NCBI GenBank assembly: GCA_905160935.1
Contig: CAJHZI010000534.1
Span: 248,001 to 312,000 of the forward strand
Source of the DNA: Enchytraeus crypticus
Taxonomy: Eukaryota > Annelida > Clitellata > Enchytraeida > Enchytraeidae
Direction of reading: 5' to 3'
Length of the DNA stretch: 64,000 bases
The notes below the pieces were generated by a model. That model was given only the letters and a program-made list of their open reading frames with translations. It searched no databases and was not told the DNA's origin. The translations under genes were made by a program, and so were the position numbers. Positions 1,562 through 37,900 of the stretch are shown here, one piece after another. How positions within the stretch are numbered: position 1 is the first letter of the stretch; the number at the start of each line of letters is the position of its first letter.

Positions 1562-2361
1562 GGTCCTTTGAATCCCAGTTGTTGGATTGTTCAAGACTGT
1601 TGGAATTTTAATTAGGTAATTGCTAGCTTCACTTATTAGAATGTATGTTGTAAATAAGTTATACAACAGGTATCTACATAGTTTTTGTTGCCGTATACTA
1701 TGCACCCATTGTTATTTCGCGTGATATGATAAATTAGTCGAAATTACCACAGATTCTATCAATCAATCAATTAATCAATCATTTGATGTATCAATCAAAT
1801 CAGTTTTATGTCTGGTTCTCTTGTCATCGGTGCCTGTTTTTGTGTCTCTCTCCATTTGTGTCACAAGACACAAATGGAGAGAGACACAAAAACTGACTGT
1901 ATTCGACGATTATAAAATGTTAGAATCAGTCAGTCTGCTGCTCGATAGCGTCTCAGTGACGGGAGAGCACTGAATTTGAACCCTACATCTACTGATCCGC
2001 TGTCAAACAACTTGCTAAGGAGCTTCGGGCTCAGCCCAATATATCAGAATTCTTTTGGCAACTTTTACTTTTATGAGTTATTGAAACTGTATTGTGGTGT
2101 ATTGTAACGACACTCTTTGTATGATCTGTATGATTTGTATGATCTGTATGATTTGTATGATATTCTTTGTTTTTCCAGTCGACCTTCCATGCCTGAAGAA
2201 GATGAAGGACGCTGGCATCGTGCCAAAGGACGAGCTGAGCGTAAAGAGAATCCCAGGAACCCCGACCACCACCATCGTTCTCAAGAGTCCATCCAAGTCA
2301 GACATCGTTCCTGTCTGGAGCAGCGTCAAAGTGACTCCAGGTAGGCACGATTCACTCTCTG

Positions 2362-2406
<45 letters not shown>

Positions 2407-5400
2407 TTGTATGACTCTCTCTCTCTCTCTTTGTCTGTCTCTATATCACTCTGTATGATTCTCTCTGTCTTTGTCTTGCTCTATAATGTACTCTATATCT
2501 GGAATATCTTAATAGCGTAGGGGTAACGTCATGAAGTTTTAAATGACAGCTCCTGAGGTGAATTGAACCCTTGTGGGTTCAAATCCCGGCCGCTCTGATC
2601 TGAGAGTAAAATCTAGGACATTCGCTGGACTAGCTATACGGAAAACAGTATAAATTGCCTAACGATTAAAACATGTGGTATTAAAAGTGATAGATATCAA
2701 CGTAGTTGATCATTTCACAATAATACGTGTTTACTTTTCTTAGAATTAAAAAAAGCCTTTGAAACCCTGAATTCTTTCTTTTTGTAGGAGACGCTAAGAC
2801 GGTTCAGATCATCCCAGCTGATAACAACAACAAGCCCACAGACAGGCCACAGACAGTCGAGGTCACTGATCCAAGCAAGCCCACAGAGATCAAGTTCTCG
2901 AAGCCTCTGGAAGCACCTGAGCTCATCATCATCATCACATCAAAGTCTGGCAAACCAACCGACATGGACGTCATCTCTGTCGTCAGCTGTATGCCCAAAG
3001 ACGGTTAGCGGGATGTCTATTCGTGGTCTGCTAGTATAAAAATGTAGTATTTATATATAATATATTTTATTTCAGTAAAAAGCACTTTTTAATTTCTAAT
3101 TATTATTATTTATAATTTTATTTATATATTAAGTAATAAAAATAATAATGATGATAGTAACAATAATACTAATAATAATGCTAATAATAATAATATAAAT
3201 AATAATTTAATAATAATAATGGTAATAATAATTTTTATACAAGATATTATATATATCCGGACACAACGCAGGAAAATAATGAAATAACAAATAACAATAA
3301 GTAGTAGTTTCCTTAAATAATGTAACTTTAGAGCTTTCATTTATAGAGCATTTACTTTTATACTATATTCTATATATTAAGAGCGTTTGCATTCGCTGAT
3401 GCATTCTTTTTATTTACATAATGTTACAATTGTTACTAGTTAACCTGTTACTAATTAATTAATTATGTTGCTAACGTTGTAAGTAACTGCTCTAATGTTG
3501 TCATTTGTACAGATGCAACAACAACAACACCAGCACCAGGCACAACCACGACAATCGGTGCAGCAACAACAACAATCCGCGCAACAACAACAACAGCAAG
3601 CGTTGCAACCACACCGGGCTCAACCGTTGGAACAACCGTTGTCACCACCAGCACTCCAACCTTGGGTAATTAATCAACTGATTATATTATAACAGTAATA
3701 ATAACAATACTAATACTCATCATCATCATCATATTACCTTAAATTCCAGTTTAACCCTGGTCGGGATACGAATATACTTTCTCCAGTCTTCCTTGTCACA
3801 CACCTTATCGTTAGTCAATCCCCTATTTTTCATGTCCTTCTTAATTACCGCATCCCTCAATTGTGATCAGGTACTAATAATACTAATACTAATGATACTA
3901 AGACCAATATTTAATACCATTACTTAAAATAAAAAATAATTATAATAATAAAAATAAAAGTAACACTACTACTAATTTTAGTAATGAAATGGCTAATAAT
4001 AATATTAATAATTATAGTAATACTAATAATACGTTAACCATATCTTTACCCATTATCATTCCTGACCAGTTAAATGTTTCTCGATGTTCTCTCGCAGACA
4101 TTCCATGTCTGAAGAAGATGAAGAACGACGGAATCGTGCCAAAGGACAAGCTGAAGACCAAGAGAGTTCCTTCTGGAACGACCACCGTCATCATCGCCGA
4201 GAGCCCAACCAAGCCCAAGGAGACTCCGGTCTGGAGCAAGGTGACCATGACACCTGGAGACGTCAAGGAGATCACCGTTGTTCCAGTTGACGAGAATAAC
4301 AAGCCAACCGACAAGCCGCAGGTCACTCCAGTTCCAGAGCCATCCAAGGCCACTGAGATCAAGTTCACCAAGCCGATTGTCTCTGAGAAGATTATGATCA
4401 TCGTCAAGTCCAAGTCCGACAAACCAACCGACGTCGATATCATCTCCGTGGTCAGCTGTCTGCCAGAGGATGGTTAGATATGATTAGTTTATCAATAACT
4501 TAACCGTGTTGTGTCCGGGTTGCTGAAGAATACATCAGCTGTTGACTGCTTGCGTCATAAAAGGCGACAAATCACGTAATCCAAACTTTTTTTAGAATGG
4601 GCATTCTGAAAAAAGTTTGTTTGGAATGGTTTATTTAGCAATAGTTTATTTCAGGCATTTGGAATGGTTTATTTAGCTTCTAGGCTTCAACAATTGGTAC
4701 AAAATTTTTAAATTTCGACCCTAGTTATACTTGGATTCAAAGGAATATGATGATGATGGAAGATGATGATGATGACGTATACTTTTAGAAATATTTCATC
4801 ATCATCATCTTCCCTTAAATCCCAGTTTAACCAGGGTCGGGATACGAATAGACTTTTTTATCCATTCGTTTAAGTTTTGTGGCAATTACTGGAGCCTAGG
4901 CGCTCATCAACCGAATGCCCTTTCTTACGTTGGTATGGATCTTAGTGCGTTAGTCGTGTTCTGCGACACGTGCAGTCACCGGTTGGTCAAAATCAATATA
5001 AATAATATAGAAATATTTAAATTGAGAATTAAATCGATGAATAATTACATGAAATTAGGATTTGATTATTTAATTTTATCGTTATGGTTATAGTTCACTT
5101 ATGGTTTTGTACTTCTTTCAAGCAGTGGCCTCCAGCCATAGATCCTGCTTTTCTAAGAATGTTACCACCAAATCCACAGATGTTAGAAGTCTGAAATCTC
5201 CAACAATACTAGACCAATTTTAGGAGTAAGTTTAAGAAGGAGACCTTAGATTTGCTTAAATAACCTTAATGAAATGATCTTTTAATTTCGTAGAATCCAC
5301 AACAACCACTCCAGCCCCAACAACCGCTGGAACAACCACCGGAACAACCGCTGGAACAACCACCGGAACAACCACTTCAGCACCAACCATTCCGACAACC

Positions 5401-6304
5401 ACCGTTACAACAACCATCGCCAGCGGTAACTATAGTGCATCGATATAATTTATTATACTGTTCTATTATTTTTGCATTGTTATGTTGCTTGTACTGTACT
5501 AATTACAGAATTTTGAGTCAAAATTACCGTTAAGCTTGACTTTAGCTTTAGTCTCTATTTCTTCTAGTAGTGATGTGTGCTGTGGGGACGTCCCTGACAT
5601 AATTCCTGTATGAGGAAACGGACGTTAAACATTATTATTATTATTCTACTTATTGCAGACCTGCCATGCCTGAAGCAGATGAAGGACGGTGGTGTGGTAC
5701 CAAAGGACAAGATGGTCGTCAAGAGAGTGCCTCAGAAGACCACAACCGTCGTGACACTCGAGAGCCCGGTCAAGTCCGCCGAGACGCCCAAGTGGACTAG
5801 CGTACTGGTCAGCAAGGGAGACGTAAAGGAGATCACAGTCCTTCCCGTCGATAAGAACGGTAAACCAACCGATGAGCCACAGTCAGCCAAGGTTCAAGAT
5901 TCCACCAAGCCAACCAACGTTGAGCTGAAGAAGCCAGTGGAGGCCGATAAGCTGATCGTTACTCTGCTGTCCAACTCCGATAAACCTTCTGATGCCGACG
6001 TCATCTCGGTTGTCAGCTGCATGCCACAGCTAGGTGGGTGGATGGATCGCTTTCTGTAACGATTGAGTAATTCTTCATCATCATCATCATCATCAACATC
6101 ATCATCAACAATATCATCATCATTTCATCATCAACAGCTTATATTGAGTATATGTTTAACCAGGGTCGGGATACCAATAGATCTTCTCCATTCCTCTCTG
6201 TCCCACACTATATCATCAGTCAGTTTCCTATAAACTTTACTATTAGAAAATTGTGCATTTGTTCGAGTAATTGTCACCTCAAATATAATGTATTTTGAGA
6301 CGTG

Positions 6305-6370
<66 letters not shown>

Positions 6371-6463
6371 TATATATATAAAGCATATATGACACATCTC
6401 AAAATACAATATAATAATATCTAATTATATAATATAATATAGTATATACTGTATAATTATATA

Positions 6464-6506
<43 letters not shown>

Positions 6507-7301
6507 AAAATATAATCATAATTATATTCTTGTATAGATGAGACAACAACAACACCACAGCCGACCACCCCAGTTTCAACAACGCCAGCAATAACCGCTA
6601 TCACCACTACTGTTTCCAGCGGTATGCAATTATACCTTGCATATAAGCAACTTAAATATATTCCTATTTGCTAATATTCTTACGTTTTATGTCTATTATA
6701 TTATATTTAGTTTTTAATTTCATTCATAATTGTTCTATAATTCTAACTGGAGTTGTCGTAGTTGTAACTCTGACAAACATATACAGTCTACGACGATTTT
6801 GATCTTCAATTAAGATATAGAATCTAATAAATTTTTTGGTTTGGATATATTTGTATGCTAAAACCAGTTTTTAATTATATCTTGGTATGAACACCGTCAC
6901 ATCTGAAGACTAATGGCAAATATATGTTTAAAGTAAACAACGATAGATATAGTTTGGATATAGTTTATATTTGGATTTTAGTTTGGATATTTTTGTATGG
7001 TATAATCAGGTTTTTAATTGTATCTTGGTATGAACACTATCATATCTAAAGACTATTGGCAAATATATGTTTAAAGTAAACAACGATAGATAATGTATTG
7101 AGTTTGTTTTGATCATAATAAATGGACTAATGCATCGTACATCATATGCCGTGCTGGCTAACTTGTTTTAAACAATTTCTCAGTTGATATTTTTCGTATA
7201 ATTGTAATTTTTTATGTTCTTGTGTGTTTTTTTAAATGTAATTTCTATTATTATAATACCTTCCGCTGCACTTTTTATTATGTGTGTGCATATTTGATGC
7301 T

Positions 7302-7347
<46 letters not shown>

Positions 7348-8396
7348 GCTAATATACCTATATACCTGGAGTAAACAATTAACTCATAATCATCTTCATT
7401 ATCAGCTTCCCATAGATCTAAGTCTAACTCGGAATTTTATATCAATTTGTAGATGTCCCATGCCTGAAGAAGATGCCAAACGATGGAATCGTCACCAAGG
7501 ATCAGATGAAGGTCACCAAGGTACCAGGTGCCAAGGACACAACCGTCACCCTTGAGAGCCAGACAACACCAAAGGACACACCAACATGGACAAAGGTCAC
7601 CGTCTCTAAGGGCGATGTAAAGGAAGTCAAGGTCACTCCAACTGGAAAGGATGGTAAACCAACCGGTGAAACCCAGACCGCTCCAGTTCCTGACCCAAGC
7701 AAGCCAACCGACGTTCAGTTCAAGAAGCCAATCGATGCCGACAAGCTGACCGTGACCTTCGTGTCCCAGTCTGGCAAACCATCAGATGCCGAAGTCATCT
7801 CCGTCGTCTCCTGCATGCCAGTCAGTGGTACGTCACCTGCTCTTCTTTCAGACAATCATAGACAAAAATAATGTGTATATGAAGACAGGAATGAATGTTG
7901 CTGGATGGTATAAAGTTCCACTCATATGTAGACATTTTTTACTGGTTTAGATGTTAATTTAAATGTAACTATTATTTAGCTTACTATTATTATTGAACTC
8001 TTTCTGTAAAGTAGTCTCGAAGACAGAGTACGGCCATGACACTGCCATGTAAGTTTTCATTGTTATTAGAGTGCCTACACGTCGTGTTGAAGCAATATTA
8101 AATATAATTTTATAGCTATAATTATAATATTAATATCATATACAAATTTGTGGTATATCTTAAATTTGTATGGGTTGCAAATTTGTTGTAAAGGTTGACC
8201 ACCCATTGACTGGTCATTTCGTAAAAGGCGACAAAGAACTAAATATCCAAACCACCATCAAAGATGGCATTCGGTTGATGATCGCCTATGTGCCAGAAAT
8301 TGATTTAAAAATTTCTATTCCCGATCCCAATATAAAAATGAGATTCAAAGGAAAAACGATGATGATGATGATGATGATGATGATGACGACGACGAC

Positions 8397-8452
<56 letters not shown>

Positions 8453-9962
8453 CTGATATTGTGGTATATTAATATATTTCTTATTGTTATTCGTTATCAT
8501 TTAGAAGCTACCACCACCACTGCAGGCACCACTGTAGGCACCACACCAGGCACCACTGCTCCAGCCACCACCGTGCCAACAACTGTTGTCACCGCCTCCT
8601 CTGTTACTGGTAGGAGTAAATCTTTAACTTTATCACAATATCACATACGATGTAATGTTTTGAGGTTTTAAATATTGTCTTAAATATTAACACAGTACAT
8701 CAGATGCAATGCTATAAAGCCGATGTTAACGTCAGTTTCAGTGAAGGAATACATATAAATGACATTAAGTAAGCAATAAAAAATTCCATAATTCAAGCTA
8801 ACTTTTTTATGATATATCAAATGTCTCTATTTTATATCTAATATATGCAAAAATGAAAACATTTTCCAGATGTGCCATGCCTGAAGAAGATGAAGGACAA
8901 TGGTATCGTACCAAAGGATCGTCTCGACACTAAGAGAGTCCCAGGCGCTAAGACCACCATCATCATCATCAAGAGCAAGATCGTGCCAAAGGAGAAGTCA
9001 GTCTGGAAGAGCGTCACCCTCACAGCAGGAGATCTGAAGAAGGTCGATGTGTTCCCAGCCGATAAGACCGGTAAACCCACCGACAAGCCACAGACCGTTG
9101 AGGTACCAGACACCGGCAAGCCAACCGAGGTCAAGTTCACCAAGCCAATAGAGGCCGATGAGCTTCTGGTTGTTCTTACGCCGAAGTCCGACAAACCAAC
9201 CAACGTAGATGTCGTCTCTGTGGTGGCCTGTCTGCCAGAAGATGGTAATAAGAATTGCGGATTTTATGTTATATTTCTTACTTATATAGTATTTGTTTTT
9301 TATTTCAAACCTCAATTTAATAATGTAGGATAATTGATAAAGAAACTATTGACAATGAAGAATGTTTCGTGGTTTCCTGAGGAGCCCTTAAGCCATCGAG
9401 CAGGACACCAACAGTTTTATATATTAAAAAATACATTGGCCTTTGAACAACTGAGATAATTAATTCAGGTAATATTATTTATTGTTTTATTGTTTCTCAA
9501 TAAGTTATTTGTCTATTTGTTCTCTATTAGATATATATCTATTAGTTATTTCTGTAGTTGCTCTTTACAAAATGTTTGTTTCTCTATTAGTTATTTATCT
9601 ATTTGTTGCATCCATGTTTGTTATCGCCTTGTGGCGACTTTACTATGCATGTTTTTTACCTATCACTTAAATAAATTTCTGATTACTTAATCAATATGTT
9701 TTAAGAATATCTTCAAGTATGTATGGACAGACATGAAAGAACTCTATTTTAAATTGTATTTGTAGAATCCTCTACAACTACCACTGGCACCACAGCTGGC
9801 ACAACTACTGGCACAACTACTGGCACCACAGCTGGCATAACCACACCAGCACCAACTGTGCCAACCACTGTCCTTACTACAGTGGTCGCATCGGGTAAGA
9901 TTCTGTGAAACTGTTTTTCTGAAGTCAGCCTGCAACGAACGTTTAATAAACCTGTGTTATAT

Positions 9963-10033
<71 letters not shown>

Positions 10034-10063
10034 AGGTATATATATATATATATATAACATATT

Positions 10064-10153
<90 letters not shown>

Positions 10154-13100
10154 TAATAAGATTGGAGAAACCTTGCACCTGAACTACCTCATCATTCCAT
10201 GCTGGCGTGACTTCATACATCATTCCGCCTCAGCGTCTGAAGCAAATTCATAAAATCATTTTCCATTCAAAATCTTTTACCGTTTAATCATTTCTGCGGA
10301 ACCCTGTTGCAGCTGAATCATGTGGCAACAGAACTATGTAACAACTGAATCATTTTCTAAATACATCATGTGTTAACTGAATCATGTTGTAACTGAGTAT
10401 GTGAGTATATACGTCATGACGTCACATATATGTGAGTACATACGTCATGACGTCACGTATATGTGAGTACATACATCATATCTCGCAGTAGACTGCCAGA
10501 GGTGATGAGCTGCTGTTCTATGTACATCTCAAAGCTGTTGTTAGAGTGCTGCACTACAGAGAGCAAACAGTCACAACTACAGAGTAATTTCTCACATTGC
10601 CATTTAGGGGACCCAAGATATGTTTTGTTTACTGCTTAAGAGTTTGAGGCTGTTAATAAACTCGCTAATTTTATCCACTATTGCAGATCTGCCATGTCTG
10701 AAGAAGATGCCCAACGATGGAATCGTCACAAGAGATCAGCTGAAGATCCAGAAGCTTCCAGGCACGACCACAGCATTCATCGTGCAGAGCCCAACTGAGC
10801 CAAAGAACACACCAGTCTGGGACAAGGTCACCGTCACTCCAGGCGATCTCAAGGAGGTCAAGGTAATTCCAGTTGATAAGAGCGGCAAGCAGGCCGGAGA
10901 AACCCAGAACGTTAAGGTTCCAGATTCCACCAAGCCTACTGATGTTAAGTTCGAGAAACCGCTGGAGGCTGACAAGCTGATTGTTACCATCATCTCCAAC
11001 ACAGGAAAACCATCTGATGCTCAGATCATCTCAGTCGTGGCCTGCCTGCCTCAACCTGGTGAGCAACAAAACATTAAATTAAATTAAATTAAATTTAACG
11101 ATATGTTCTTTGGCGTCCATTAATTCATCATCACCATTTTCTTCCCTTACATCCCAGTTTAACCAGAGTCGGGATATGAATAGACTTTCTTTAAGTTTAT
11201 CCGTTCATTTAAGTTTTTGTAGATTAATTTCATTAATTAATTTCAATAGCTGGAGCCAGTGGCGATGTCGGTAAGATATTCGACCGCGGATCAGTATGTG
11301 CGGGGTTCAAATTATGGGCTCGCCCGTCACTGACATCACTTTCGAGTGAGGAGTCTCACGTTAAAATTACGTTTCTAGCTTTGGCTAGATTCCTTGTAAA
11401 GGTCTAATAGCATCCAACCCTAGTTGAACTTGGATTCAAAGGAAGACGATAATGATTGCTGAGATTACATGCAAATCAAGATGTCACTAGTATTTATGGC
11501 TGCAATATTTCTCTTTATGTTTGTACTGAAGTGTAATTGGTTAAAGATTATATGTCAAAATTTAAAATCGAATACATTTTTGCTGATACAACTAAGGACG
11601 CTGTTTGGTACTATTTTCAATTTCTTAAATTTTTTTCACGAGACTTCCTATATTCTAATTAGGTTTTAATTTTGAGAATTTCAGTAACAAAAATTGCTAT
11701 TAAATTACTTGTAAAATGTTTGGCAGCGAATGTTTTTGTTTAATCTAAACAGAAGCCTCAACAACAACAACACCTCTGCCAACTACCACACCAATCTCCA
11801 CAACAGCTGTAACCACAGTCATCGCCAAGACCCCAGAGAAGGGTAAGAACTGCTGAATATTTACTTTGTTCTATTTTATTTATTTTATTATATTTATTTT
11901 ATTTAGTATTTATGTAATTTCCCCGTGTTGTGTCCGGGTTGTTTGAAGAATAGACCAACCGGTGACTGCACGTGTCGTAGAAGGCGACTAAAACACTAAG
12001 ATCCATATCAACGTCAGAAAGGGCATTCGGTTGGTGAGCGCCTAGGCTCCAGAAATTGCTACAAAAATTAATCGAATGGAAGAGACTTTTATATGATATG
12101 GGAGAAAGAGGAGTGGAGAAGGTTCATTCGTATACAGATCCAGTTAAACTGGGACTAAAGGGAAGAAGAAGAATATTTTATTTATTTTATTTTATTAGGT
12201 CGCATACATTTTGTTCATAGGACTGGTTACACCTAAAAATGGACTAAATTGTCTAGCGGTTTAAACATGTGGCATCTAATATATAAAGCGTGTGTTTTAT
12301 TTTCTAGAACTGCCGTGTCTGAAGAGCATGCCAAACGGCGGCATTGTCAGAAAGGAGCAGCTCAAGGTCACCAAGGTACCAGGAGTCAAGGACACCACAG
12401 TCGTCCTTGAGAGCCAGACAACACCAAAGGACACACCAACATTCGAGAGCGTGAAGGTCACTCCAGGAGACGTCAAGGAAGTCAAGGTTACTCCAACCGG
12501 AAAAGATGGTAAGCCAACTGGTGAAACAAAGGTCGCTCCAGTTCCAGATTCAGGAAAGGTGACGGATGTTAAGTTTGAGAAGCCCGTTGTTGCTGACAAG
12601 CTGACAGTGACCTTCGTGTCCAAGTCTGGAAAACCATCTGATGCCGATGTCATCTCTGTCGTAGGATGTCTGCCAGCACCAGGTACAATATTACCTTTTT
12701 ACAAAGCACCAGGTACACTATTCCCGTTTACATAGCACCAGATACACCATTACCGTTTACATAGCACTAGGTACATTATTACCGTTTACATAGCACTAGG
12801 TACATTATTACCGTTTACATAGCACTAGGCACATTATTACCGTTTACATAGCACCAGGTACACTATTACCGTTTATTACCGTTTACAAAGCACCAGGTAT
12901 AATATTACCTTTTTACAAAGCACCAGGTACACTATTACCGTTTACATAGCACCAGGTACACTATTACCGTTTACATAGCACCAGGTACACTATTACCGTT
13001 TACATAGCACCAGGTACACTATTACCGTTTACATAGCACCAGGTACACTATTACCGTTTACATAGCACCAGGTACACTATTACCTTTTTTACACAGCGCA

Positions 13101-13513
13101 GGCACACCAGCTACATAGTAAATAGGTAAAAACCTAAATGAAAACAAAATAGATAATCATCAAAATAATGTAATGGAAATATATTAGTTCATTTTTAGAA
13201 ATTAGGCCATCTATGTTAGTTTTTACATTCTAAGAAAGATATTGCACGCTTAAACCCAGTGACTAACTTTAGTGTCATCAGGAGTATAATTAACGAATAT
13301 TCACAAACCACTATTAAGTACAAGAAGGTCCTTTCTTATCCCGACCTTATTTAAACTGGGAATTAAGGGAAGATGACGATGATGATGATGATTCACAAAC
13401 CACCCGAAAATCGATTTATGGAATTGTTAACTGCCAGCAACATTATGATCCAGTTATACACAACAATATATCTGCCTATTGACCATGAGCCTGCCAACGG
13501 GCGTTGGGCTCAC

Positions 13514-13558
<45 letters not shown>

Positions 13559-16500
13559 AATCTTCATTATCAGCATCATCATCTTCTCATGAATCCTAGC
13601 TTGTCTAGGTTTGGGATTTTAAACAATGCATTTCTAAATTTCTCGATTTTTTACAAATTTCAGAAGTGGCTGCCACCACTACCCCAGCTGCAACCACCAC
13701 TACCGGATCCACTGTTGCTCCAACAACAACTCCAGGAGCCACCGTATCAACAACCGTACCAACAACAGTACCAACAACCGTTGCTACCACAACCCTGCTG
13801 TCTGGTAAGTACTAATCTAACCTAAGAATGAAATCTAATTTGCATTCGGAATCAGTTTTAATTTGTAAGATGGCGGGGCTTAAGAATGTAAAAATATAAC
13901 GGTTACATTGATCTAGGGATAACGTCGACCTTCTGGGTAATGCAATGAAATACCACTCAAAGTAATTTTCTTATCCTTCACTGAACATATTTTAAAATAT
14001 CATAAACCCAAGCCCTTTTAGAGAGCATTTAATCATATGACGAATACAAATATATATATAATAATAATAATTCACATTATAGTGCAACGACGTTGCTATC
14101 TATCACTTTTAATACATGATGTTAAATCCGTAGGGCAATTTTGTCCATTTTCCGTGTAACCATTCCAGTGAATATCTGAAATTTTACTCTCAGATCAGCG
14201 CGGCTGGAATTTGAACCCAAGAGGATTCAATTCAATTAATTCACCCCAGGGTCTGTCATATAAAATTTTATGACGATATCTACACCTCTAACCATTTCGC
14301 TATTGAGACATTCAAGATGCCACTTTACTGTTTGTAGAACTCCCATGTCTGAAGAAGATGATCAACGGAGGTCTGGTACCAAAGAGTCAGCTCAACACAA
14401 GGAAGATCCCAGGCAAGAACGTTCTTTACATCGTCAAGAGCAAGTCTGAGCCCAAGTACACTCCAATCTGGGAGAAGGTAACACTCACACCTGGAGATCT
14501 GAAGGAAGTCAAGGTCACTCCAATAGATAAGGCCGGCAAGCCAGCCGACAAGGCCCAGTCCGTTGTGGTTCCTGAATCAGCCAAACCCGCCGAGATCAAG
14601 TTCACTAAGCCAATTGAGGCCTACCAGCTGATCGTAGAACTTATTTCAAAGACTGGTAAACCAAGCGATGTCGACATCGTCTCCGTTGTTGGCTGTCTGC
14701 CAGATAACGGTAGGTTATACTTTTGAAAAGCTAGGGTATACGTCAGTTTCCTCACTTGAAAGCGATGTCAGTGACGGGCGAGCACAGGATTTGAACCCCG
14801 CACATACTGATCCGCGGTCGAGTATCTAACCGATGTCTCCACTGACTCCAGCCATAGTATGTAGAAGTATGGTTATGAAGATCTGAGGGTCCAAATCCTG
14901 GGCGTGTTCGTTCGTCATTGATATTGCTTTCGAGAGGTGAGAGAAACCGAAACTGAAACCGTGGACACCTTTTTGTCGGATCAGCTCGCTCCAATCAGTT
15001 ATCTCTGAATTATAGATTGATGTCTTGAATGTTCGTAAGATTTAAATTCGATTATTTGAACTTATGCTGTCTTGTATATTCTACTATAATTGAATAACAG
15101 TAAAAGTAAATTCTAAATACAAATAAATATTATTATTTTATTAAAAGTAATACATTTCAATTATAAAACTTAATTTAAGTGTGTTGATGATTTTCAGAAT
15201 CCAAAGACATCACTACACCTGGCACCACTGCTGGCTCCACAGTTGGCACCACAGTTGGCACCACAACCACTGCACCAACCGTGCCAACCACTGTGCTGAC
15301 CACAACGGTTGTCTCAGGTATGATTGCAGAGTTTTTGTCGCCTATAATAGTAATAATAATAATATTATATGTTTAACGTCCGTTTCCTCATACAGAGATG
15401 ATATCAGAGACGTCGGTAAAGTACAATACATATCGATTCCATAGTGGAATTTTATTAGTCAAGTACTTTCGTGAAGATTCTTGAACTGGTTTTTATCATT
15501 TGTAAATGCTATAAAGTTGTAATGTTGTAACTTTGTCATATTTCAGTAGGAATTCACTAATGATCATCGTTGCTAATGAGCAGAGCTAGCTCATGTTATT
15601 TTATAACTTCTAAATTGACTTGTGCCATTGGCATGTGCCCGATAAAGCTTGGAAGGGCATGAAAATCTTAACTAGTAATAGTTTATTATTGAGAAATCAC
15701 AACTTGTAAATATCTTAAAAAGCTGTCGGCTTGCAGAAGCGAAAATGCACTCTATTACCTTCTGGTTGGAGTCAGTGGCAATGTCGATATAAGACCCGAT
15801 CGCGGATCAGCGTGTGCGGGGTTTAAATCTTGAGCTCTCTCGTCACTGATATCGCTTTCAGAGATGAAACTAACGTTAACATCTGCTTTACAGTATTCTG
15901 GTGTGCATTTGCAGATCTTCCATGTCTGAAGAAGATGAACAACGGTGGACTCATTCCAAAGACCAGCCTCAAGATGAAGAGAATCCCGAGCAAGAAGAGC
16001 ACAACGGTCATTGTCGAGAGCCTCGTTCAGCCGAAGAACACTCCAATCTGGGAGAGAGTCACCGTGTCCAAGGGCGACGTCAAGGAGGTCATTGTAACTC
16101 CAATCGGAAAGAAGGGTACTCCAACAGGCAAGCCACAGAACGCCAAGGTTCAAGACTCCACCAAGCCAACCGAGGTGATATTCGACAAGCCATTGGAAGC
16201 TGAGAAGCTGCTGGTAACTCTGATGTCCAACTCTGACAAGGCATCCGATGCTGATGTCGTATCCGTTGTTGCCTGCCTGCCTGAAGCCGGTCAGTGTTTG
16301 ATTTGTCATTTTGTTAGACATAAAAAAGGGGAATTGAAAAAATTTCTACATGTAACTTATTTTAAAAATTACTTTTATTTTAAATGTAGGCATAAAATAA
16401 AGACTTTAATAGTCAAACTAGTAGCGAAATATTTAGTAATTTTTCTATTTGTGTTTTGTGTCATTTTTTATTTCAATAGGACACATGTACCAGAAGGGAA

Positions 16501-16680
16501 TTGCATTTATATCGTATAATGAGATTTATTTTATTTTCAGATGTAGCAACAACTACAACACCACAGCCAACAACAACTGTAGCTGTGACAACACCAACCA
16601 CCACCGTTGTAGCAACCACCGTTATCACTGGTATGTCTAAATTACCTACTAGAATTATACATTTATATTATTTATATATA

Positions 16681-16731
<51 letters not shown>

Positions 16732-16787
16732 ATAATATATATATATATATATACATAATATATATATATATGTATATATACATACAG

Positions 16788-16834
<47 letters not shown>

Positions 16835-16876
16835 ACACACACACACATATATATATATATATACATGTATATATAG

Positions 16877-16931
<55 letters not shown>

Positions 16932-25900: not shown

Positions 25901-28900
25901 TTCTCCATATATAGTAGAATGAGAATATTTCGAAAATTTACTATGTCGTTTCTAATCAATTCAGTATTTGACGACTTGCAATTTTTTGAATCTGAAAAAT
26001 TAAAGAGTGGGTATGGTCTTCATTTCTGCAGAACTTCCATGCCTGAAGAAGATGCCAAATGATGGAGTTGTTACAAAGGATCAGCTCGACACCAAGAGAG
26101 TACCAGCAGGCGAGAAGACAACCATCAGCATCAAGCCAAAGGTTGAGCCAAAGGAGAAACCAGAATTCGAGAGCATCAAGTTGACACCAGGAGATGCCAC
26201 CAAGGTTACTGTAACTCCAGCAGACAAGAGCGGCAAGCCTCAGGGTCAGTCACAGACAGCCAACGTTGTCGATCCTAAGAAGGCTACCGAGGTCAAATTC
26301 CCCAAGCCACTTGTTGCCGATCAGCTCATCGTAGAAGTGACTTCAAAGTCTGGCAAACCAACCGATGTTGATCTCATCTCTGTGCGCGGATGTGTACCAC
26401 TTGATGGTAAGCGCATATATTCTGATTTTTAATTCATTATCTAAATTGGTCATTGAATTTCATTGAACCTTTTGACGCTTTCACTCTGGTAACATGTTTA
26501 CAATGGCTTCTCAATATACTTACTAAATTTGTAAGGTGTATCTGCCATATTTAATACAGCTTTCACTTTATAACTAAACTAATGAATTCTATTTCAGATT
26601 CCACCACAACAACGCCAGCTCCAACTACTCCAGCCAGCACAACAGCAGCTAGCACCGTTCCAACAACCGTTGTTACCACTGTGTCGGTCCCAATTGGTAT
26701 GCCAATTTTCGAAAATATCAAAAGTCTGAAATAATATTCTAAAACTGTCTTTAGCAATAATTGATATTTAAGTTAATCAAGCAAACTATTCCTTTTACAG
26801 TACATTGATTATAATTTACGGATGTTGCAACAGTTCTCTTAATAGTAAAGCTTTTCAGAAACATAGTCTATTGGGGCATTTCCGTAGTTATCGTTTGTCT
26901 TAAAGCCACTTTAGAATAACTTGTGCGTATATTTGATCTCTATAAGAACAACTGATATGTTACAGTTGCTCCATGCCTGAAGGACATGAAGGATGGAGGT
27001 GTTGTTCCAAAGGATAACCTGAAGACCACCACTACCACCGACAAGAACACAAAGACAGTAACACTCGAGAGCCAGAAGACTCCAAAGGATACTCCACAAT
27101 GGAGCAAGGTTACCGTCACTCCAGGAGATGTAAAGGAAATCAAGGTTACTCCAACCGACAAATCCGGCAAGCCAACAGGAGAGACCCAGATCGCCAAGGT
27201 TCAAGACTCAACCAAACCAACCGACGTTCAGTTCACTAAGCCAATTGAGGCTGACAAGCTCGTGGTTACTCTTGTTTCCAACTCCGATAAACCATCCAAC
27301 GCTGATGTCATCTCTGTTGTAGCCTGCCTGCCAAAGGATGGTAAGTATTAATTGGTCTTATTTGCGTTAAATTATCTGCTATTATAATGTCAATGTTTCT
27401 TCGCGGTTTTAATCCACAGATCAAGAACTCATTTCATAAGTAATAATATTAAATATTCATATAATTTTCAAGAAGTACAAAGCTGATTAGGTGCTAGTGT
27501 ATTACTATTAAATTCTACAATAATGGTTTAAGCTATAGTTTGACTTTTACCCCACACCGACTTTTCGTAGCATATATATTTACTTCTAATCTATATCTTA
27601 AGTCAATCTTCTCTTTGATGTTAAATGCCAAAAGGCACTGTCTATTTTCTATTCATATTTTACTAGTATTTTTGCACTTTTATATATTTCAATGAATAAT
27701 ATTTATACAGACTTGACCACAACAACAACACCACAGCCAACCACTCCAGTTCCTACGACGCCAGCTACAACCGTTACCACGACAACTGTTTCCAGCGGTA
27801 GGCTTGGTTGTTGATATTTATTTATTTTCTGTAATGAATTTTCTTTAAGAAACGTTTTTTGAAAGTGACACTATCTAACGTTATTGATATGTTTCCATTT
27901 GTTAAGTATCCCTATTTTATTCCTCAATTTGAGAATGACTTGCAATTTAAAGCGCACTTTTGAAACTCTGAGGCTACTTAGTTTACAATTAACAAGACAC
28001 CGGATCTGTGATATTTAAATATTTATTTTATAGATGTCCCATGTCTGAAGAAGATGCCAAACGGTGGTGTCGTCACAAAGGATCAACTGAAGGTCACAAA
28101 GGTACCAGGAGAGAAGGACACAACCGTCACGGTTGAGAGCCAGACTGCACCAAAGGATACACCAACATTCGAGAGCCTGAAGGTCACTCCAGGTGATGTC
28201 AAGGAAGTGAAGGTTACTCCAACCGGAAAGGATGGTAAGCCAACCGACAAGCCACAGGTTGTCCAGGTACCAGATTCCAAAAAGGCCACAGATGTCAAGT
28301 TCCTGAAGCCAATCAACGCTGACAAGCTGACAGTGACATTCGTATCCAAATCTGGAAAACCATCTGATGCCGATGTCATCTCTGTTGTTGGATGCCTCCC
28401 AGTACCTGGTAAAGCCATTCTAAAATTATTTGTAAATTATAGAATATTTATAATTATCGGTATAACCTTATAATACTTCTATTATTATATAATATTTGTC
28501 TAATTTAAACATATGCAACTGCATTGAACTCAGTTTACCTATTTCAAATAAAGTATGAAATAATGACGTGCTGGATCCGTTGTGATTTAGAATGTTATGT
28601 ATTGTTGCGTTTTTCATTTACAGTAAGTGTTAATGTAATGAAAATGAACATTTTATAAAAGGATATTGAACTTATTTTACAGAAGCTGCAACAACGACTC
28701 CATCTGCTACAACAACTGTTACACCAGTGCCAACAACTGTTGCTACTACAGTCATTCTTGCTGGTAAGGATTTGATTTCAAATACATAACAGCAGCGCAT
28801 TTTTGTTCATAAATATAATTCTCCATATATAGTAGAATGAGAATATTTCGAAAATTTACTATGTCGTTTCTAATCAATTCAGTATTTGACGACTTGCAAT

Positions 28901-31900
28901 TTTTTGAATCTGAAAAATTAAAGAGTGGGTATGGTCTTCATTTCTGCAGAACTTCCATGCCTGAAGAAGATGCCAAATGATGGAGTTGTTACAAAGGATC
29001 AGCTCGACACCAAGAGAGTACCAGCAGGCGAGAAGACAACCATCAGCATCAAGCCAAAGGTTGAGCCAAAGGAGAAACCAGAATTCGAGAGCATCAAGTT
29101 GACACCAGGAGATGCCACCAAGGTTACTGTAACTCCAGCAGACAAGAGCGGCAAGCCTCAGGGTCAGTCACAGACAGCCAACGTTGTCGATCCTAAGAAG
29201 GCTACCGAGGTCAAATTCCCCAAGCCACTTGTTGCCGATCAGCTCATCGTAGAAGTGACTTCAAAGTCTGGCAAACCAACCGATGTTGATCTCATCTCTG
29301 TGCGCGGATGTGTACCACTTGATGGTAAGCGCATATATTCTGATTTTTAATTCATTATCTAAATTGGTCATTGAATTTCATTGAACCTTTTGACGCTTTC
29401 ACTCTGGTAACATGTTTACAATGGCTTCTCAATATACTTACTAAATTTGTAAGGTGTATCTGCCATATTTAATACAGCTTTCACTTTATAACTAAACTAA
29501 TGAATTCTATTTCAGATTCCACCACAACAACGCCAGCTCCAACTACTCCAGCCAGCACAACAGCAGCTAGCACCGTTCCAACAACCGTTGTTACCACTGT
29601 GTCGGTCCCAATTGGTATGCCAATTTTCGAAAATATCAAAAGTCTGAAATAATATTCTAAAACTGTCTTTAGCAATAATTGATATTTAAGTTAATCAAGC
29701 AAACTATTCCTTTTACAGTACATTGATTATAATTTACAGATGTTGCAACAGTTCTCTTAATAGTAAAGCTTTTCAGAAACATAGTCTATTGGGGCATTTC
29801 CGTAGTTATCGTTTGTCTTAAAGCCACTTTAGAATAACTTGTGCGTATATTTGATCTCTATAAGAACAACTGATATGTTGCAGTTGCTCCATGCCTGAAG
29901 GACATGAAGGATGGAGGTGTTGTTCCAAAGGATAACCTGAAGACCACCACTACCACCGACAAGAACACAAAGACATTAACACTCGAGAGCCAGAAGACTC
30001 CAAAGGATACTCCACAATGGAGCAAGGTTACCGTCACACCAGGAGATGTAAAGGAAATCAAGGTTACTCCAACCGACAAATCCGGCAAGCCAACAGGAGA
30101 TACCCAGATCGCCAAGGTTCAAGACTCAACCAAACCAACCGACGTTCAGTTCACTAAGCCAATTGAGGCTGACAAGCTCGTGGTTACTCTTGTTTCCAAC
30201 TCCGATAAACCATCCAACGCTGATGTCATCTCTGTTGTAGCCTGCCTGCCAAAGGATGGTAAGTATTAATTGGTCTTATTTGCGTTAAATTATCTGCTAT
30301 TATAATGTCAATATTTCTTCGCGGTTTTAATCCACAGATCAAGAACTCATTTCATAAGTAATAATATTAAATATTCATATAATTTTCAAGAAGTACAAAG
30401 CTGATTAGGTGCTAGTGTATTACTATTAAATTCTACAATAATGGTTTAATCTATAGTTTGACTTTTACCCCACACCGACTTTTCGTAGCATATATATTTA
30501 CTTCTAATCTATATCTTAAGTCAATCTTCCCTTTGATGTTTGAATGCCAAAAGGCACTGTCTATTTTCTATTCATATTTTACTAGTATTTTTGCACTTTT
30601 ATATATTTCAATGAATAATATTTATACAGACTTGACCACAACAACAACACCACAGCCAACCACTCCAGTTCCTACGACGCCAGCTACAACCGTTACCACG
30701 ACAACTGTTTCCAGCGGTAGGCTTGGTTGTTGATATTTATTTATTTTCTGTAATGAATTTTCTTTAAGAAACGTTTTTTTGAAAGTGACACTATCTAACG
30801 TTATTGATATGTTTCCATTTGTTAAGTATCCCTATTTTATTCCTCAATTTGAGAATGACTTGCAATCTAAAGCGCACTTTTGAAACTCTGAGGCTACTTA
30901 GTTTACAATTAACAAGACACCGGATCTGTGATATTTAAATATTTATTTTATAGATGTCCCATGTCTGAAGAAGATGCCAAACGGTGGTGTCGTCACAAAG
31001 GATCAACTGAAGGTCACAAAGGTACCAGGAGAGAAGGACACAACCGTCACGGTTGAGAGCCAGACTGCACCAAAGGATACACCAACATTCGAGAGCCTGA
31101 AGGTCACTCCAGGTGATGTCAAGGAAGTGAAGGTTACTCCAACCGGAAAGGATGGTAAGCCAACCGACAAGCCACAGGTTGTCCAGGTACCAGATTCCAA
31201 AAAGGCCACAGATGTCAAGTTCCTGAAGCCAATCAACGCTGACAAGCTGACAGTGACATTCGTATCCAAATCTGGAAAACCATCTGATGCCGATGTCATC
31301 TCTGTTGTTGGATGCCTCCCAGTACCTGGTAAAGCCATTTCTAAAATTATTTGTAAATTATAGAATATTTATAATTATCAGTATAACATTATAATACTTC
31401 TATTATTATATAATATTTGTCTAATTTAAACATATGCAACTGCATTGAACTCAGTTTACCTATTTCAAATAAAGTATGAAATAATGACGTGCTGGATCCG
31501 TTGTGATTTAGAATGTTATGTATTGTTGCGTTTTTCATTTACAGTAAGTGTTAATGTAATGAAAATGAACATTTTATAAAAGGATATTGAACTTATTTTA
31601 CAGAAGCTGCAACAACGACTCCATCTGCTACAACAACTGTTACACCAGTGCCAACAACTGTTGCTACTACAGTCATTCTTGCTGGTAAGGATTTGATTTC
31701 AAATACATAACAGCAGCGCATTTTTGTTCATAAATATAATTCTCCATATATAGTAGAATGAGAATATTTCGAAAATTTACTATGTCGTTTCTAATCAATT
31801 CAGTATTTGACGACTTGCAATTTTTTGAATCTGAAAAATTAAAGAGTGGGTATGGTCTTCATTTCTGCAGAACTTCCATGCCTGAAGAAGATGCCAAATG

Positions 31901-34900
31901 ATGGAGTTGTTACAAAGGATCAGCTCGACACCAAGAGAGTACCAGCAGGCGAGAAGACAACCATCAGCATCAAGCCAAAGGTTGAGCCAAAGGAGAAACC
32001 AGAATTCGAGAGCATCAAGTTGACACCAGGAGATGCCACCAAGGTTACTGTAACTCCAGCAGACAAGAGCGGCAAGCCGCAGGGTCAGTCACAGACAGCC
32101 AACGTTGTCGATCCTAAGAAGGCTACCGAGGTCAAATTCCCCAAGCCACTTGTTGCCGATCAGCTCATCGTAGAAGTGACTTCAAAGTCTGGCAAACCAA
32201 CCGATGTTGATCTCATCTCTGTGCGCGGATGTGTACCACTTGATGGTAAGCGCATATATTCTGATTTTTAATTCATTATCTAAATTGGTCATTGAATTTC
32301 ATTGAACCTTTTGACGCTTTCACTCTGGTAACATGTTTACAATGGCTTCTCAATATACTTACTAAATTTGTAAGGTGTATCTGCCATATTTAATACAGCT
32401 TTCACTTTATAACTAAACTAATGAATTCTATTTCAGATTCCACCACAACAACGCCAGCTCCAACTACTCCAGCCAGCATAACAGCAGCTAGCACCGTTCC
32501 AACAACCGTTGTTACCACTGTGTCGGTCCCAATTGGTATGCCAATTTTCGAAAATATCAAAAGTCTGAAATAATATTCTAAAACTGTCTTTAGCAATAAT
32601 TGATATTTAAGTTAATCAAGCAAACTATTCCTTTTACAGTACATTGATTATAATTTACAGATGTTGCAACAGTTCTCTTAATAGTAAAGCTTTTCAGAAA
32701 CATAGTCTATTGGGGCATTTCCGTAGTTGTCGTTTGTCTTAAAGCCACTTTAGAATAACTTGTGCGTATATTTGATCTCTATAAGAACAACTGATATGTT
32801 GCAGTTGCTCCATGCCTGAAGGACATGAAGGATGGAGGTGTTGTTCCAAAGGATAACCTGAAGACCACCACTACCACCGACAAGAACACAAAGACATTAA
32901 CACTCGAGAGCCAGAAGACTCCAAAGGATACTCCACAATGGAGCAAGGTTACCGTCACACCAGGAGATGTAAAGGAAATCAAGGTTACTCCAACCGACAA
33001 ATCCGGCAAGCCAACAGGAGATACCCAGATCGCCAAGGTTCAAGACTCAACCAAACCAACCGACGTTCAGTTCACTAAGCCAATTGAGGCTGACAAGCTC
33101 GTGGTTACTCTTGTTTCCAACTCCGATAAACCATCCAACGCTGATGTCATCTCTGTTGTAGCCTGCCTGCCAAAGGATGGTAAGTATTAATTGGTCTTAT
33201 TTGCGTTAAATTATCTGCTATTATAATGTCAATGTTTCTTCGCGGTTTTAATCCACAGATCAAGAACTCATTTCATAAGTAATAATATTAAATATTCATA
33301 TAATTTTCAAGAAGTACAAAGCTGATTAGGTGCTAGTGTATTACTATTAAATTCTACAATAATGGTTTAAGCTGTAGTTTGACTTTTACCCCACACCGAC
33401 TTTTCGTAGCATATATATTTACTTCTAATCTATATCTTAAGTCAATCTTCTCTTTGATGTTAAATGCCAAAAGGCACTGTCTATTTTCTATTCATATTTT
33501 ACTAGTTTTTTTGCAATTTTATATATTTCAATGAATAATATTTATACAGACTTGACCACAACAACAACACCACAGCCAACCACTCCAGTTCCTACGACGC
33601 CAGCTACAACCGTTACCACGACAACTGTTTCCAGCGGTAGGCTTGGTTGTTGATATTTATTTATTTTCTGTAATGAATTTTCTTTAAGAAACGTTTTTTG
33701 AAAGTGACACTATCTAACGTTATTGATATGTTTCCATTTGTTAAGTATCCCTATTTTATTCCTCAATTTGAGAATGACTTGCAATTTAAAGCGCACTTTT
33801 GAAACTCTGAGGCTACTTAGTTTACAATTAACAAGACACCGGATCCGTGATATTTAAATATTTATTTTATAGATGTCCCATGTCTGAAGAAGATGCCAAA
33901 CGGTGGTGTCGTCACAAAGGATCAACTGAAGGTCACAAAGGTACCAGGAGAGAAGGACACAACCGTCACGGTTGAGAGCCAGACTGCACCAAAGGATACA
34001 CCAACATTCGAGAGCCTGAAGGTCACTCCAGGTGATGTCAAGGAAGTGAAGGTTACTCCAACCGGAAAGGATGGTAAGCCAACCGACAAGCCACAGGTTG
34101 TCCAGGTACCAGATTCCAAAAAGGCCACAGATGTCAAGTTCCTGAAGCCAATCAACGCTGACAAGCTGACAGTGACATTCGTATCCAAATCTGGAAAACC
34201 ATCTGATGCCGACATCATTTCCGTTGTGGGTTGTCTGCCAGTCTCTGGTATGTCGTTTATTTATTTTAAATACATAGCTTATTTAATCAATATAATAAAA
34301 AACCAGTAGTTTAACGTATGGAAAAGTCTCAAATAACTGAATGGCTGGTGGTGTGGTTAAGGAGAGAGAGGATTTGAGAAGGTCTATTTCTATCCCGTCC
34401 CTGGTTTAACTAGGATTGAATGGAGGAGGATGATGTCGACAATGAATAAAGAACCTATTTTGAGTAAATTTACATCCGCTGACCATCTTTTATTAACTAA
34501 ATAGTTTTTGTATTGTCAATGCTTGTGCTCTCCAACTTTTGTAAATTTTTAAATTATCCGTTGATATTTTATTTAAATCTTAACATTTTATTTTTAATAT
34601 ATTAAGTTGATTGCCTTATAAGATAATTGTAACGCCTTTGCATGTGCAGATGATGCAACAACTACGCCAGCTCCTGGAACTACCCCACCAACAACTGTTG
34701 CTCCAACCACTGTTCCAGCAACAACTACTGCCGCTTCGACAACTGTTGCCACAACAATTATCACCACTATCATCCCCAAGGGTATGTTATTGAAATCTTG
34801 CAATAATTTGATTGTGATCTTTGTCTTTTAACTCCCAGAATAGAATAAATGAAATAAGAATTGTAAGATGTGTTTATTGTACATATTTATATCTATTATT

Positions 34901-37900
34901 TATTTATTTATTTATTATCCTTCACTGACATCGCCTTCGAGTGAGGAAACTGGCATTAACATGGGCCTGACCAGCGTTTTAAAATTAGTAGCCACAGAGT
35001 GTCCTATTCACTCTACGAATAATTGGCGACTTTTTTTGAATTCTTTGTGAACAAAATTTATTCTGATCATTTTGTATTGTTTTTCAAGTTTTTCTGTTTG
35101 ATTATTCTTAAGTTATTGTCTTTATATAATTATCATCATCATTTTCATCGTTATTATCTTCCATTAAATCCCAGTTTAACCAGGGTCGGGATTCGAATAG
35201 ACTTTCTCCAATCCTCCCTGTCCCACACCATATCATCAGTCAATCATATATTTTTCATGTCCTTCTTAATTATCGCATCCCACGTCAGTTGTGGTTTACC
35301 TCTCTCTGGCTTAACATCCAGCCATTCCCTCCAAATTCTCTTTACTACATCCTCATCTGCCTTTCGCACCATATACCCATACCATCCCATTCTTGACTGA
35401 GCCAACCTATCCCCGATCCCCTTGAAAATTCTAATTTTCAAATTCATCCTCGAATAATTATTCATTTTCAATTCTGTCCTTCCTAGTTCCTCTACAAATT
35501 AGACATAACATTTTCATATCTGCCTCATTCAAACTCTGTAAATGTTCCCTTTTTAGTGCCCAACCTTTCGAACTATACATAAAACCATTAATACTATATC
35601 ATGCCTTGTAAATGATACAGTAAAGATGGTTTTGTGAATTATTTTGGTTTTAATCATCTTCATCTTCGTCTCTTGTTTCCCAGATAAACTAGAGTATGGA
35701 TGCGAATAGATCTTCTCCATTACTTGTTTGAATCTTAGCGCGCTGACGCCTTTTACGAAATCGCATTCGACGGTTGGTCTCTCCTCAGCAACCCGGACCA
35801 ACACGAGTTATTACTACTACAATAGTTCTGATATTTAATATATACTTCGCTTTCAATAATATAACATGTATAGTTCAAAAGAGGATCTGCAAATACTCTT
35901 TTTGTAATACATTTACTTCAGTTGAACTTCCATGCCTGAAGAAGATGCCAAATGATGGAGTTGTTACAAAGGATCAGCTCGACACCAAGAGAGTACCAGC
36001 AGGCGAGAAGACAACCATCAGCATCAAGCCAAAGGTTGAGCCAAAGGAGAAACCAGAATTCGAGAGCATCAAGTTGACACCAGGAGATGCCACCAAGGTT
36101 ACTGTAACTCCAGCAGACAAGAGCGGCAAGCCTCAGGGTCAGTCACAGACAGCCAACGTTGTCGATCCTAAGAAGGCTACCGAGGTCAAATTCCCCAAGC
36201 CACTTGTTGCCGATCAGCTCATCGTAGAAGTGACTTCAAAGTCTGGCAAACCAACCGATGTTGATCTCATCTCTGTGCGCGGATGTGTACCACTTGATGG
36301 TATTATGATCTTTATGTACATAGCCTATGATTTCATGTCTCTGAGAATATGATATATTGATATTACGATAATATATTGTTCCATCAATTTAGATAACGTT
36401 TTCATTTATTTCATTTAGAAATACTAAAATTATTGATAAAATGTTTAAGTGAGGACATTGAAAAGATTACGACCTTTTAAATATCTTTTCTTAAATTCAT
36501 GTTAAATTCACACTTTGTAAACATGTTAAGTTCTCGATAGAAATTTATATTTTAAATTCAATTGTAGGAGTCGAAGCTCCATCATCTTTGTAACGTATTT
36601 AATTTCTTATTTCCAGATTCCACCACAACAACACCGGCTCCAACTACTCCTGCCAGCACAACAGCTGCTAGCACCATTCCAACAACCGTTCAAACAACCG
36701 TTGTTACATCTGTGGCTGTCTCCAGCGGTATGAAATCTCATTTCCTTCTTAAAACACTCAATAGAAATATTTAGTTACTCTTCAACAAAATATATATTCT
36801 TTTAGCATTTTCTAATTACATTGTGGCTACTCAAATTATACTGTATTTATCTGTTGTTCTCGGATAATTTTCTGAAACTGGATGTGAGTTATCATTTAAA
36901 ACTCTTTAATAGCTATAAAACAAAGCAAAAAGAAGTTATGATGATTTAACCCTTTTATTGGCGTAAGTTTTTACAACAATTCTGGAATATTTAACAGTCT
37001 TTCTCAGATATTTTATGTGTACATAAACAGATCTTGAGTTATCATAAAAATATATAAAATCTTCAAAATTTGTTTAATACTATCGAATAGCAACTGAGTT
37101 CCTAACAAGTAAATTTATGGCTTCACAATACAAAAAATGTTTCAGGCGATGGCCTTATGTGACGCTAGAGATAAATTGCCACTTTCGAATCACTTTCTAA
37201 TCACTTATGTGACGCTAGAGATAAATTGCCGCTTTCTAATCACTTTGGAAGAAAGTATTGTTAGAAAATTGGATGAAGAAATTGTTATGAAATCAACTTG
37301 GTGAATATTTCAGTTACATTTACGAGGTAATGTCTATACCAAGTTCTTCGTCAAATAGTGCAATTAAATATAAAGAGGAATAAATCGATGTAAATGCTAA
37401 AAGCCTTATCCAGCTGCCATATTTCATCGCGATAAATGCTAACAACTCCATGCATATCTTCATTTTCATTTATTTTTCATTCATCACGATAAATGCTACC
37501 AATGTCATGCATATCTTCAGATCTTCCATGCCTGAAGAAGATGCCAAACGGAGGCGTAGTACAGAAGAGCCAGCTCAGCGTTTCCAAGACACCAGGAACC
37601 ACCAGCACAAAGTTCGTTCTCAAGAGTCCATCGGACTCCAAGGAAACTCCAGTCTGGCAGAGCGTGAAGGTAACTGCAGGAAATGTTCAGAGCATCACCG
37701 TCTATCCAGCCGGAAAGGATGAGAAGCCAACCGCCGCTGAGCAGACCGCCAACGTTCCAGACTCCACCAAGGCTACCGAGATTGTGCTGAAGAAGCCAGT
37801 CGAGGGAGAGAAGCTCGTCGTTGTGATCACACCAAAGAAGACCAGCGAAGCCAGCAACGTTGACATCATCTCCGTCGTAGGATGCGTCGCTGGCGTATCT

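Follow-up and report, generated by a model that had tools for sequence, protein, structure and literature searches.

Gel-forming mucins contain alternating CysD and PTS segments. In other giant proteins, blocks of several domains have served as the unit of duplication: nebulin was duplicated seven domains at a time (PMC1553488, excerpt) and titin has super-repeats (PMC10665226). In human NBPF on chromosome 1, 3mer higher-order repeats (Olduvai triplets) of ~4,770 bp are composed of three two-exon monomers, according to the excerpt of PMC9584774. Here we describe a 64-kb window of the genome of the annelid Enchytraeus crypticus (contig C441, 248001-312000; coordinates are positions in this window unless preceded by a contig name), in which D exons, each encoding a single folded domain, alternate with T exons, each encoding a threonine-rich spacer. 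Between 4098 and 36727, we identified 25 exons of each kind (D3-D27 and T3-T27), which follow a strict rotation of three types, A-B-C, through eight units and a final A. We consider it likely that this mucin-like array grew by divergence of a D-T module, copying of a six-exon unit and conversion confined to exons.

As far as the excerpted NBPF account goes, the two systems are alike in being intragenic, in having three diverged monomer types in fixed order and in having six exons per unit, and the NBPF unit of about 4,770 bp resembles the first unit of this array (4,772 bp) in length. The domain and the gene are unrelated, and canonical NBPF copies diverge by <5% per monomer, whereas four of the eight units here are old, with unrelated introns, and stand beside young copies and exon-limited identity. 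The three-part intragenic repeat is thus of an already known kind, and the exon-limited identity is the feature most worth following. Nebulin and titin share with this locus a block of several diverged domains as the duplication unit of a giant protein, and for chicken nebulin the same exon pattern is described in each block. The exon borders of nebulin lie inside domains, whereas here each D is one symmetric-phase exon alternating with T; both nebulin and titin are muscle proteins with other domains. The gel-forming mucins also alternate a folded domain with Thr/Pro/Ser-rich spacers, and candidate TIL and VWC exons are located downstream of the array, but the folded domain here is predicted to be discoidin-like, not CysD. 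The literature matches listed, the best 2-15 of up to 26,742, included neither this array nor an annelid mucin of the sort, and the genome paper of E. crypticus (PMC8460440) has 0 occurrences of the word "mucin" in its main text.

Three module types in rotation

Exon borders were set by AG and GT. The starts of T5 and T9 are ambiguous, with an alternative start one to three codons further on. The units, with their A-to-A spacing in bases, are as follows.

4098..8869, plus strand: unit 1 (4772); D3/A 4098-4472, T3 5294-5425, D4/B 5659-6033, T4 6538-6621, D5/C 7453-7827, T5 8505-8609
8870..14337, plus strand: unit 2 (5468); D6/A 8870-9244, T6 9766-9894, D7/B 10687-11058, T7 11753-11842, D8/C 12308-12682, T8 13664-13804
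14338..18862, plus strand: unit 3 (4525); D9/A 14338-14709, T9 15198-15317 (start may be 15207), D10/B 15915-16289, T10 16541-16630, D11/C 17392-17766, T11 18471-18560
18863..23112, plus strand: unit 4 (4250); D12/A 18863-19237, T12 19752-19862, D13/B 20557-20931, T13 21445-21555, D14/C 21997-22371, T14 22754-22882
23113..26031, plus strand: unit 5 (2919, young); D15/A 23113-23487, T15 23679-23777, D16/B 24047-24421, T16 24793-24879, D17/C 25116-25490, T17 25765-25845
26032..28949, plus strand: unit 6 (2918, young); D18/A 26032-26406, T18 26598-26696, D19/B 26966-27340, T19 27711-27797, D20/C 28034-28408, T20 28683-28763
28950..31870, plus strand: unit 7 (2921, young); D21/A 28950-29324, T21 29516-29614, D22/B 29884-30258, T22 30630-30716, D23/C 30954-31328, T23 31604-31684
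31871..35921, plus strand: unit 8 (4051, young to about 34213); D24/A 31871-32245, T24 32437-32535, D25/B 32805-33179, T25 33550-33636, D26/C 33873-34247, T26 34650-34781
35922..36727, plus strand: final A; D27 35922-36299, T27 36617-36727

The spacing reproduces the unit lengths (4.77 to 4.05 kb) given in the first-pass annotation of this DNA, which had proposed the A-B-C rotation that is confirmed here. The length of every D and T exon in the rotation is a multiple of 3, both of its borders are in phase 1, and all exons of the array share one frame and phase; exons or blocks can therefore be gained or lost in frame. D7 (10687-11058) and D9 (14338-14709) fall one codon short of all other rotating D exons. 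A 29-bp minisatellite is located at 12675-13092, in the intron following D8.

The class marks proposed earlier separate the classes with few exceptions. The end mark VD..SV is present in 9/9 A exons and 0/16 others of the rotation (it also occurs in D28, a D exon outside it), and a DTKRVP-like block, searched with a pattern of our own, is likewise present in 9/9 A and 0/16 others, with the exact DTKRVP in 7/9 A. The end marks SN[ST].K and TFVS are found in all eight B and all eight C exons, respectively, and in none of the 17 others in each case. KVTKVPG is specific to C (0/17 others) but is missing in D11, leaving seven of the eight. As for the T exons, a second-position serine follows 9/9 A and 0/16 others, and TP[QL]PTT follows 8/8 B and 0/17 others. 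Ala or Val at the second position was observed after 7/8 C but also after 3/8 B, and is therefore non-discriminating. No claim is made that the marks gather in loops, as 11 of the 24 diagnostic entries are in loops and 13 in strands or helices.

Since near-copies inflate any test, sequence identity was tested on D3-D14 alone. The mean identity at lags 3, 6 and 9 was 61.2, 62.8 and 63.4%, compared with 47.2-53.7% at the other lags, and the same-phase excess was as high in only 2 of 20000 shuffles (0 of 20000 when all 25 D exons were used). In the old units, pairs of the same phase exceeded those of other phases by 9.5 points on average, with D7 and D9 as exceptions. The nearest relative was of the same class for 10 of the 12 exons, again except for D7 and D9, and was an adjacent exon for none of the 12. 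One-by-one copying of neighbours does not account for the pattern, because the identities at lags 1 and 2 are 53.7 and 53.5% versus 61.2% at lag 3. Periods 2, 4 and 5 gave negative differences, and period 6 gave a positive one, being a multiple of 3. The array has the properties of a higher-order repeat: diverged monomer types recur in fixed order, and whole units on average resemble one another more closely than do the monomers of a single unit.

The same period was detected at positions that do not alter the protein. Values as high as those observed were obtained in 204 of 20000 shuffles for four-fold sites of the D exons, 73 of 20000 for synonymous third positions and 12 of 20000 for all third positions, and the protein sequence of the T exons gave 73 of 20000. 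As the period recurs in silent sites and in the T exons, the rotation reflects descent, and convergence alone is ruled out as the origin of the classes since the silent sites follow the rotation.

Trees of the D exons and of the T exons had been suggested as a check, with three clades as the expected outcome. In the DNA tree of the 25 D exons, A (91/92) and C (100/100) each formed one group and B a grade; the corresponding values for A and C in the protein tree were 85/91 and 98/98. Forcing B together in the DNA tree costs 2.6 log units (approximately unbiased, AU, test p 0.26), and the AU p for unity of B in the protein tree is 0.18, so B as a single group is not rejected in either tree. Class C is thus firm and A is probable. 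The T exons follow the rotation with five label changes (minimum 2, shuffles average 11.3). A larger protein tree, to which 13 D rows from outside the rotation were added (two of them joined from split exons) and from which the near-copies D18-D25 and six near-copies of a second array were left out, kept C whole and required two changes each for A and B.

The dS between same-class exons of old units is about 0.5-1.3 in the pairs computed. The dN/dS of old pairs is 0.14-0.38 (13 pairs), and the D domains are therefore under purifying selection. Selection on the protein could even be the main force that keeps the rotation, if unlike neighbours were favoured (different ligands, less misfolding where like domains would otherwise adjoin) and breaks of the A-B-C order were purged. 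In agreement with this, the class marks are fixed in 8-9 of the 8-9 exons per class, and the low dN/dS values point in the same direction. A role of aggregation in such arrays was reportedly suggested by Björklund and colleagues. Selection against aggregation may favour multi-domain duplication, as stated in the excerpt of PMC1553488. However, periodicity of silent sites is unexpected from protein selection alone, and the young block described below is plain whole-unit copying. We regard selection as the main keeper of the order as improbable; it may act together with copying.

Whole-unit copies and exon-limited identity

A part of the array has been copied recently as whole units.

23113..34213, plus strand: young tandem block, 3.8 head-to-tail copies of 2.92 kb, identified by self-match

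The self-match has a length of 8235 bp, an identity of 99.4% and an offset of 2919, and spans 23100-34250. Including their introns, the young units are 98.8-99.6% identical. The pairs among units 5-7 differ by 11, 15 and 12 substitutions, and the comparisons of units 5-7 with the partial unit 8 gave 28, 22 and 22, counts that include unit 8 sequence past the junction. The left junction is the first base of exon D15. Outward from this edge, the intron shows 7, 4, 1 and 4 matches per 10 bases to the intron preceding D18. The right junction lies inside exon D26, at exon position about 341 (~34213). Both junctions therefore touch exons, the right one falling within a C exon and the left one coinciding with the border of an A exon. 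The young block shows growth by a six-exon unit, A-T-B-T-C-T. For the four old units, growth by the same unit is the best inference from their sequences, in which period 3 is also present in silent sites and T exons. No old intron homology >400 bp at same-class positions was found in the 70 longest of the 893 self-matches outside the young block, and six intron pairs around A exons gave chance-like local scores of 18-26.

Two A exons outside the young block are near-copies of the A exons within it.

18863..19237, plus strand: D12, which has 98.4-98.7% identity with D15-D24, the A exons of the young block, but unrelated introns on both sides
35925..36299, plus strand: D27 minus its three extra first bases, which agrees with D15, D18 and D21 at 375/375 positions and with D24 at 374, again between introns unrelated to those of the young A exons

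The flanks were compared with a control of 372 draws of unrelated flanks, in which the median local-alignment score was 16 and 95% of the scores were reached at 23 (left) and 20 (right), while identical flanks score 200. The introns flanking D27 scored 14-18 against the young A introns on both sides. The flanks of D12 scored 14-16 against those of D15-D24, and 19 and 30 against those of D27. One unrelated right-flank pair scored 72, and a slight residual resemblance of introns is possible. The identity of D27 begins and stops within a few bases of the exon edges. D12 and D18 differ at 7 of 375 positions, four of which are within the first five bases, and their dS is 0.04 versus 0.53 for D13-D16 and 0.77 for D14-D17, the exons that follow next in these units. 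Because the exons match and the introns are unrelated, a segmental copy alone is inadequate for D12 and D27, and conversion bounded by the extent of homology would suffice. The near-identity suggests exon-limited homogenisation, from which we infer exon-to-exon conversion between distant A exons.

Such conversion could also have used a spliced template (cDNA-mediated conversion) in place of a neighbouring genomic copy. The limits of the D27 identity, within few bases of the exon edges, would fit a spliced donor, and T27 bears a fair resemblance to T18 that the intron separating D and T does not share. A genomic donor would yield the same edges, however, since homology ends there; the similarity of T27 to T18 is only a little higher than that among T exons in general, and the exons examined contain no intron-less two-exon tract. 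A spliced template is rated as unlikely.

The E. crypticus genome was assembled with MaSuRCA from Illumina and PacBio reads combined (PMC8460440, excerpt), and a wrong copy picked when noisy long reads were corrected by short ones could in part have produced the near-identity of D12, D27 and the 2.92-kb unit. The young units nevertheless differ by 11-28 substitutions per pair, and D12 and D27 are located among unrelated introns, so we give little credence to such an artefact. The main finding is independent of the young block because D3-D14 rotate without it.

The encoded protein and the remainder of the window

The D domain comprises 122-123 residues from the first PC onward and is predicted to adopt a discoidin (F5/8C)-like beta-sandwich fold. 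In F5/8 type C domains, a pair of cysteines joins the N- and C-terminal ends. The cysteines at model positions 3 and 120 are invariant in 26/26 D sequences. The D domain is thus similar to the F5/8 type C family (PF00754) in its predicted fold and in having Cys near each end, and a recognisable member of that family is encoded in the same window, but D has ~123 residues compared with 136-158 for single-domain entries such as 2v72, the domain of 4ag4 or 1kex. The Pfam PF00754 profile matched 0/26 D sequences at E <= 0.1. A search of 5.8 billion proteins that requires exact shared words returned 8 candidate relatives, none at E <= 0.001, and the best solved structure found by sequence had an E of 0.022, which was not accepted as homology. 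Across the genome (one query against 524,188,772 bases in 802 contigs, by which distant relatives may be missed), all 46 D matches fell within C441 245,651-329,870.

The spacers T3-T27 (829 residues) consist of 45.8% T, 12.9% P and 7.1% S and should be O-glycosylated. The gene is large, mucin-like and probably secreted; its start and a signal peptide were not found. Judging from the predicted fold and the composition, its product would form an elongated, glycosylated rod studded with many repeats of a putative binding head, in mucus, cuticle or glue.

The other features of the window are as follows.

583..957, plus strand: D1, D exon upstream of the rotation
2179..3002, plus strand: D2, intron-split D domain upstream of the rotation, with halves at about 2187-2345 and 2778-3002
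37521..37901, plus strand: D28, diverged D exon downstream of the rotation, at 44-49% to each of the three classes
38645..52444, plus strand: cysteine-rich candidate exons; VWC 42728-42877 and TIL 48074-48328 over the Pfam cut-off, TIL 46032-46283 and VWC 52211-52444 under it
53215..54468, plus strand: open reading frame that encodes a recognisable F5/8 type C domain (E 5.3e-08)
57854..63071, plus strand: D29-D32, the first D exons of a second D-T array, which continues past the window to C441:329,870

D0 (C441:245654-247069) and D2 are each split by an intron near mid-domain, unlike the remaining D exons. TIL or VWC matches were obtained in 4/8 downstream window frames scanned, two of them over the cut-off, and no VWD match was found in the few frames scanned, a full scan not having been made. 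A weak D-like half domain at 55593-55817 (profile E 0.00016), shortly after the F5/8C domain, overlaps a 32-bp tandem repeat at 55420-55610. T29 is mostly encoded by a 12-bp tandem repeat at 58734-58923. At C441:309098-322282 (window 61098 onward), the D exons of the second array succeed one another as X Y X Z Y X Y X Z. Exons of the same type are 94-100% identical there, most of their flanks are not, and one copy of 2108 bp is present at 99.86%. TIL and VWC frames recur after this array (C441:331206-334308), and the two arrays may be paralogous halves of like layout. No tRNA genes were found in the window. On the mitochondrial contig (C802), the protein genes, as we recognised them, run cox1-cox2-cox3-nad6-cob-atp6-nad5-nad4L-nad4-nad1-nad3-nad2 on one strand, which is the annelid order. 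Elsewhere in the assembly, contigs C361, C424, C796, C373 and C166 contain five broken pieces resembling cox1 (four over the family cut-off), which are probably nuclear copies.

Growth and maintenance of the array

The first-pass annotation concluded that the ancestral duplication unit was six exons, not two. A six-exon unit was indeed copied, but a two-exon D-T module must have duplicated first, because the A, B and C modules are all of D-T type and homologous to one another, and because D0, D1, D2 and D28-D32 are D domains outside the rotation. As the unit of change, the six exons account for the young block but not for the near-copies D12 and D27, which lack the matching introns, or for the grouping of D9 with D7. 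We propose that copies of a D-T module arose first and diverged to become A, B and C, after which A-T-B-T-C-T would have become a tandem-copying unit through unequal crossing-over, as seen in the young block and presumed for the old units. The old introns would then have drifted past detectable resemblance, leaving the exons as the only long homologous stretches between units. As same-class exons are the most alike on average, exchange would pair A with A and C with C and thereby keep the rotation, and exon-confined conversion would render distant A exons near-identical. A more tentative possibility, which we think rather doubtful as it stands, is that this exchange itself keeps the array in register, with exons as interchangeable cassettes across unrelated introns, possibly by way of a spliced template, and so preserves an old three-type code.

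Several observations weigh against the proposed history. B was not recovered as a clade in the D trees, and the T exons do not form three clean clades. In the larger protein tree, D9 joins D7 (94/92) across classes and breaks A. This grouping suggests a cross-class exchange between D7 and D9; windows of identity along the two exons showed no sharp switch. The order of units, judged by eye, differs among the A, B and C trees. Period 3 is weak in the DNA of the T exons (131 of 5000 shuffles as high) and was not found in the 25-bp intron flanks (2178 and 14337 of 20000 shuffles). Copy number, exon identity and gene extent rest on one hybrid assembly, and the mucin nature and the function of the gene are deduced.

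The locus is a clear case, from outside primates, of a coding gene with a higher-order repeat of three parts. It combines old and young units with the two junctions of the young block, which makes it testable how domain arrays grow and how their order persists, whether by whole-unit crossing-over, exon-limited conversion or protein selection. It also points to a predicted discoidin-fold family, unrecognised by the profile of Pfam, that is encoded by a mucin-like gene in an animal used as a soil model.

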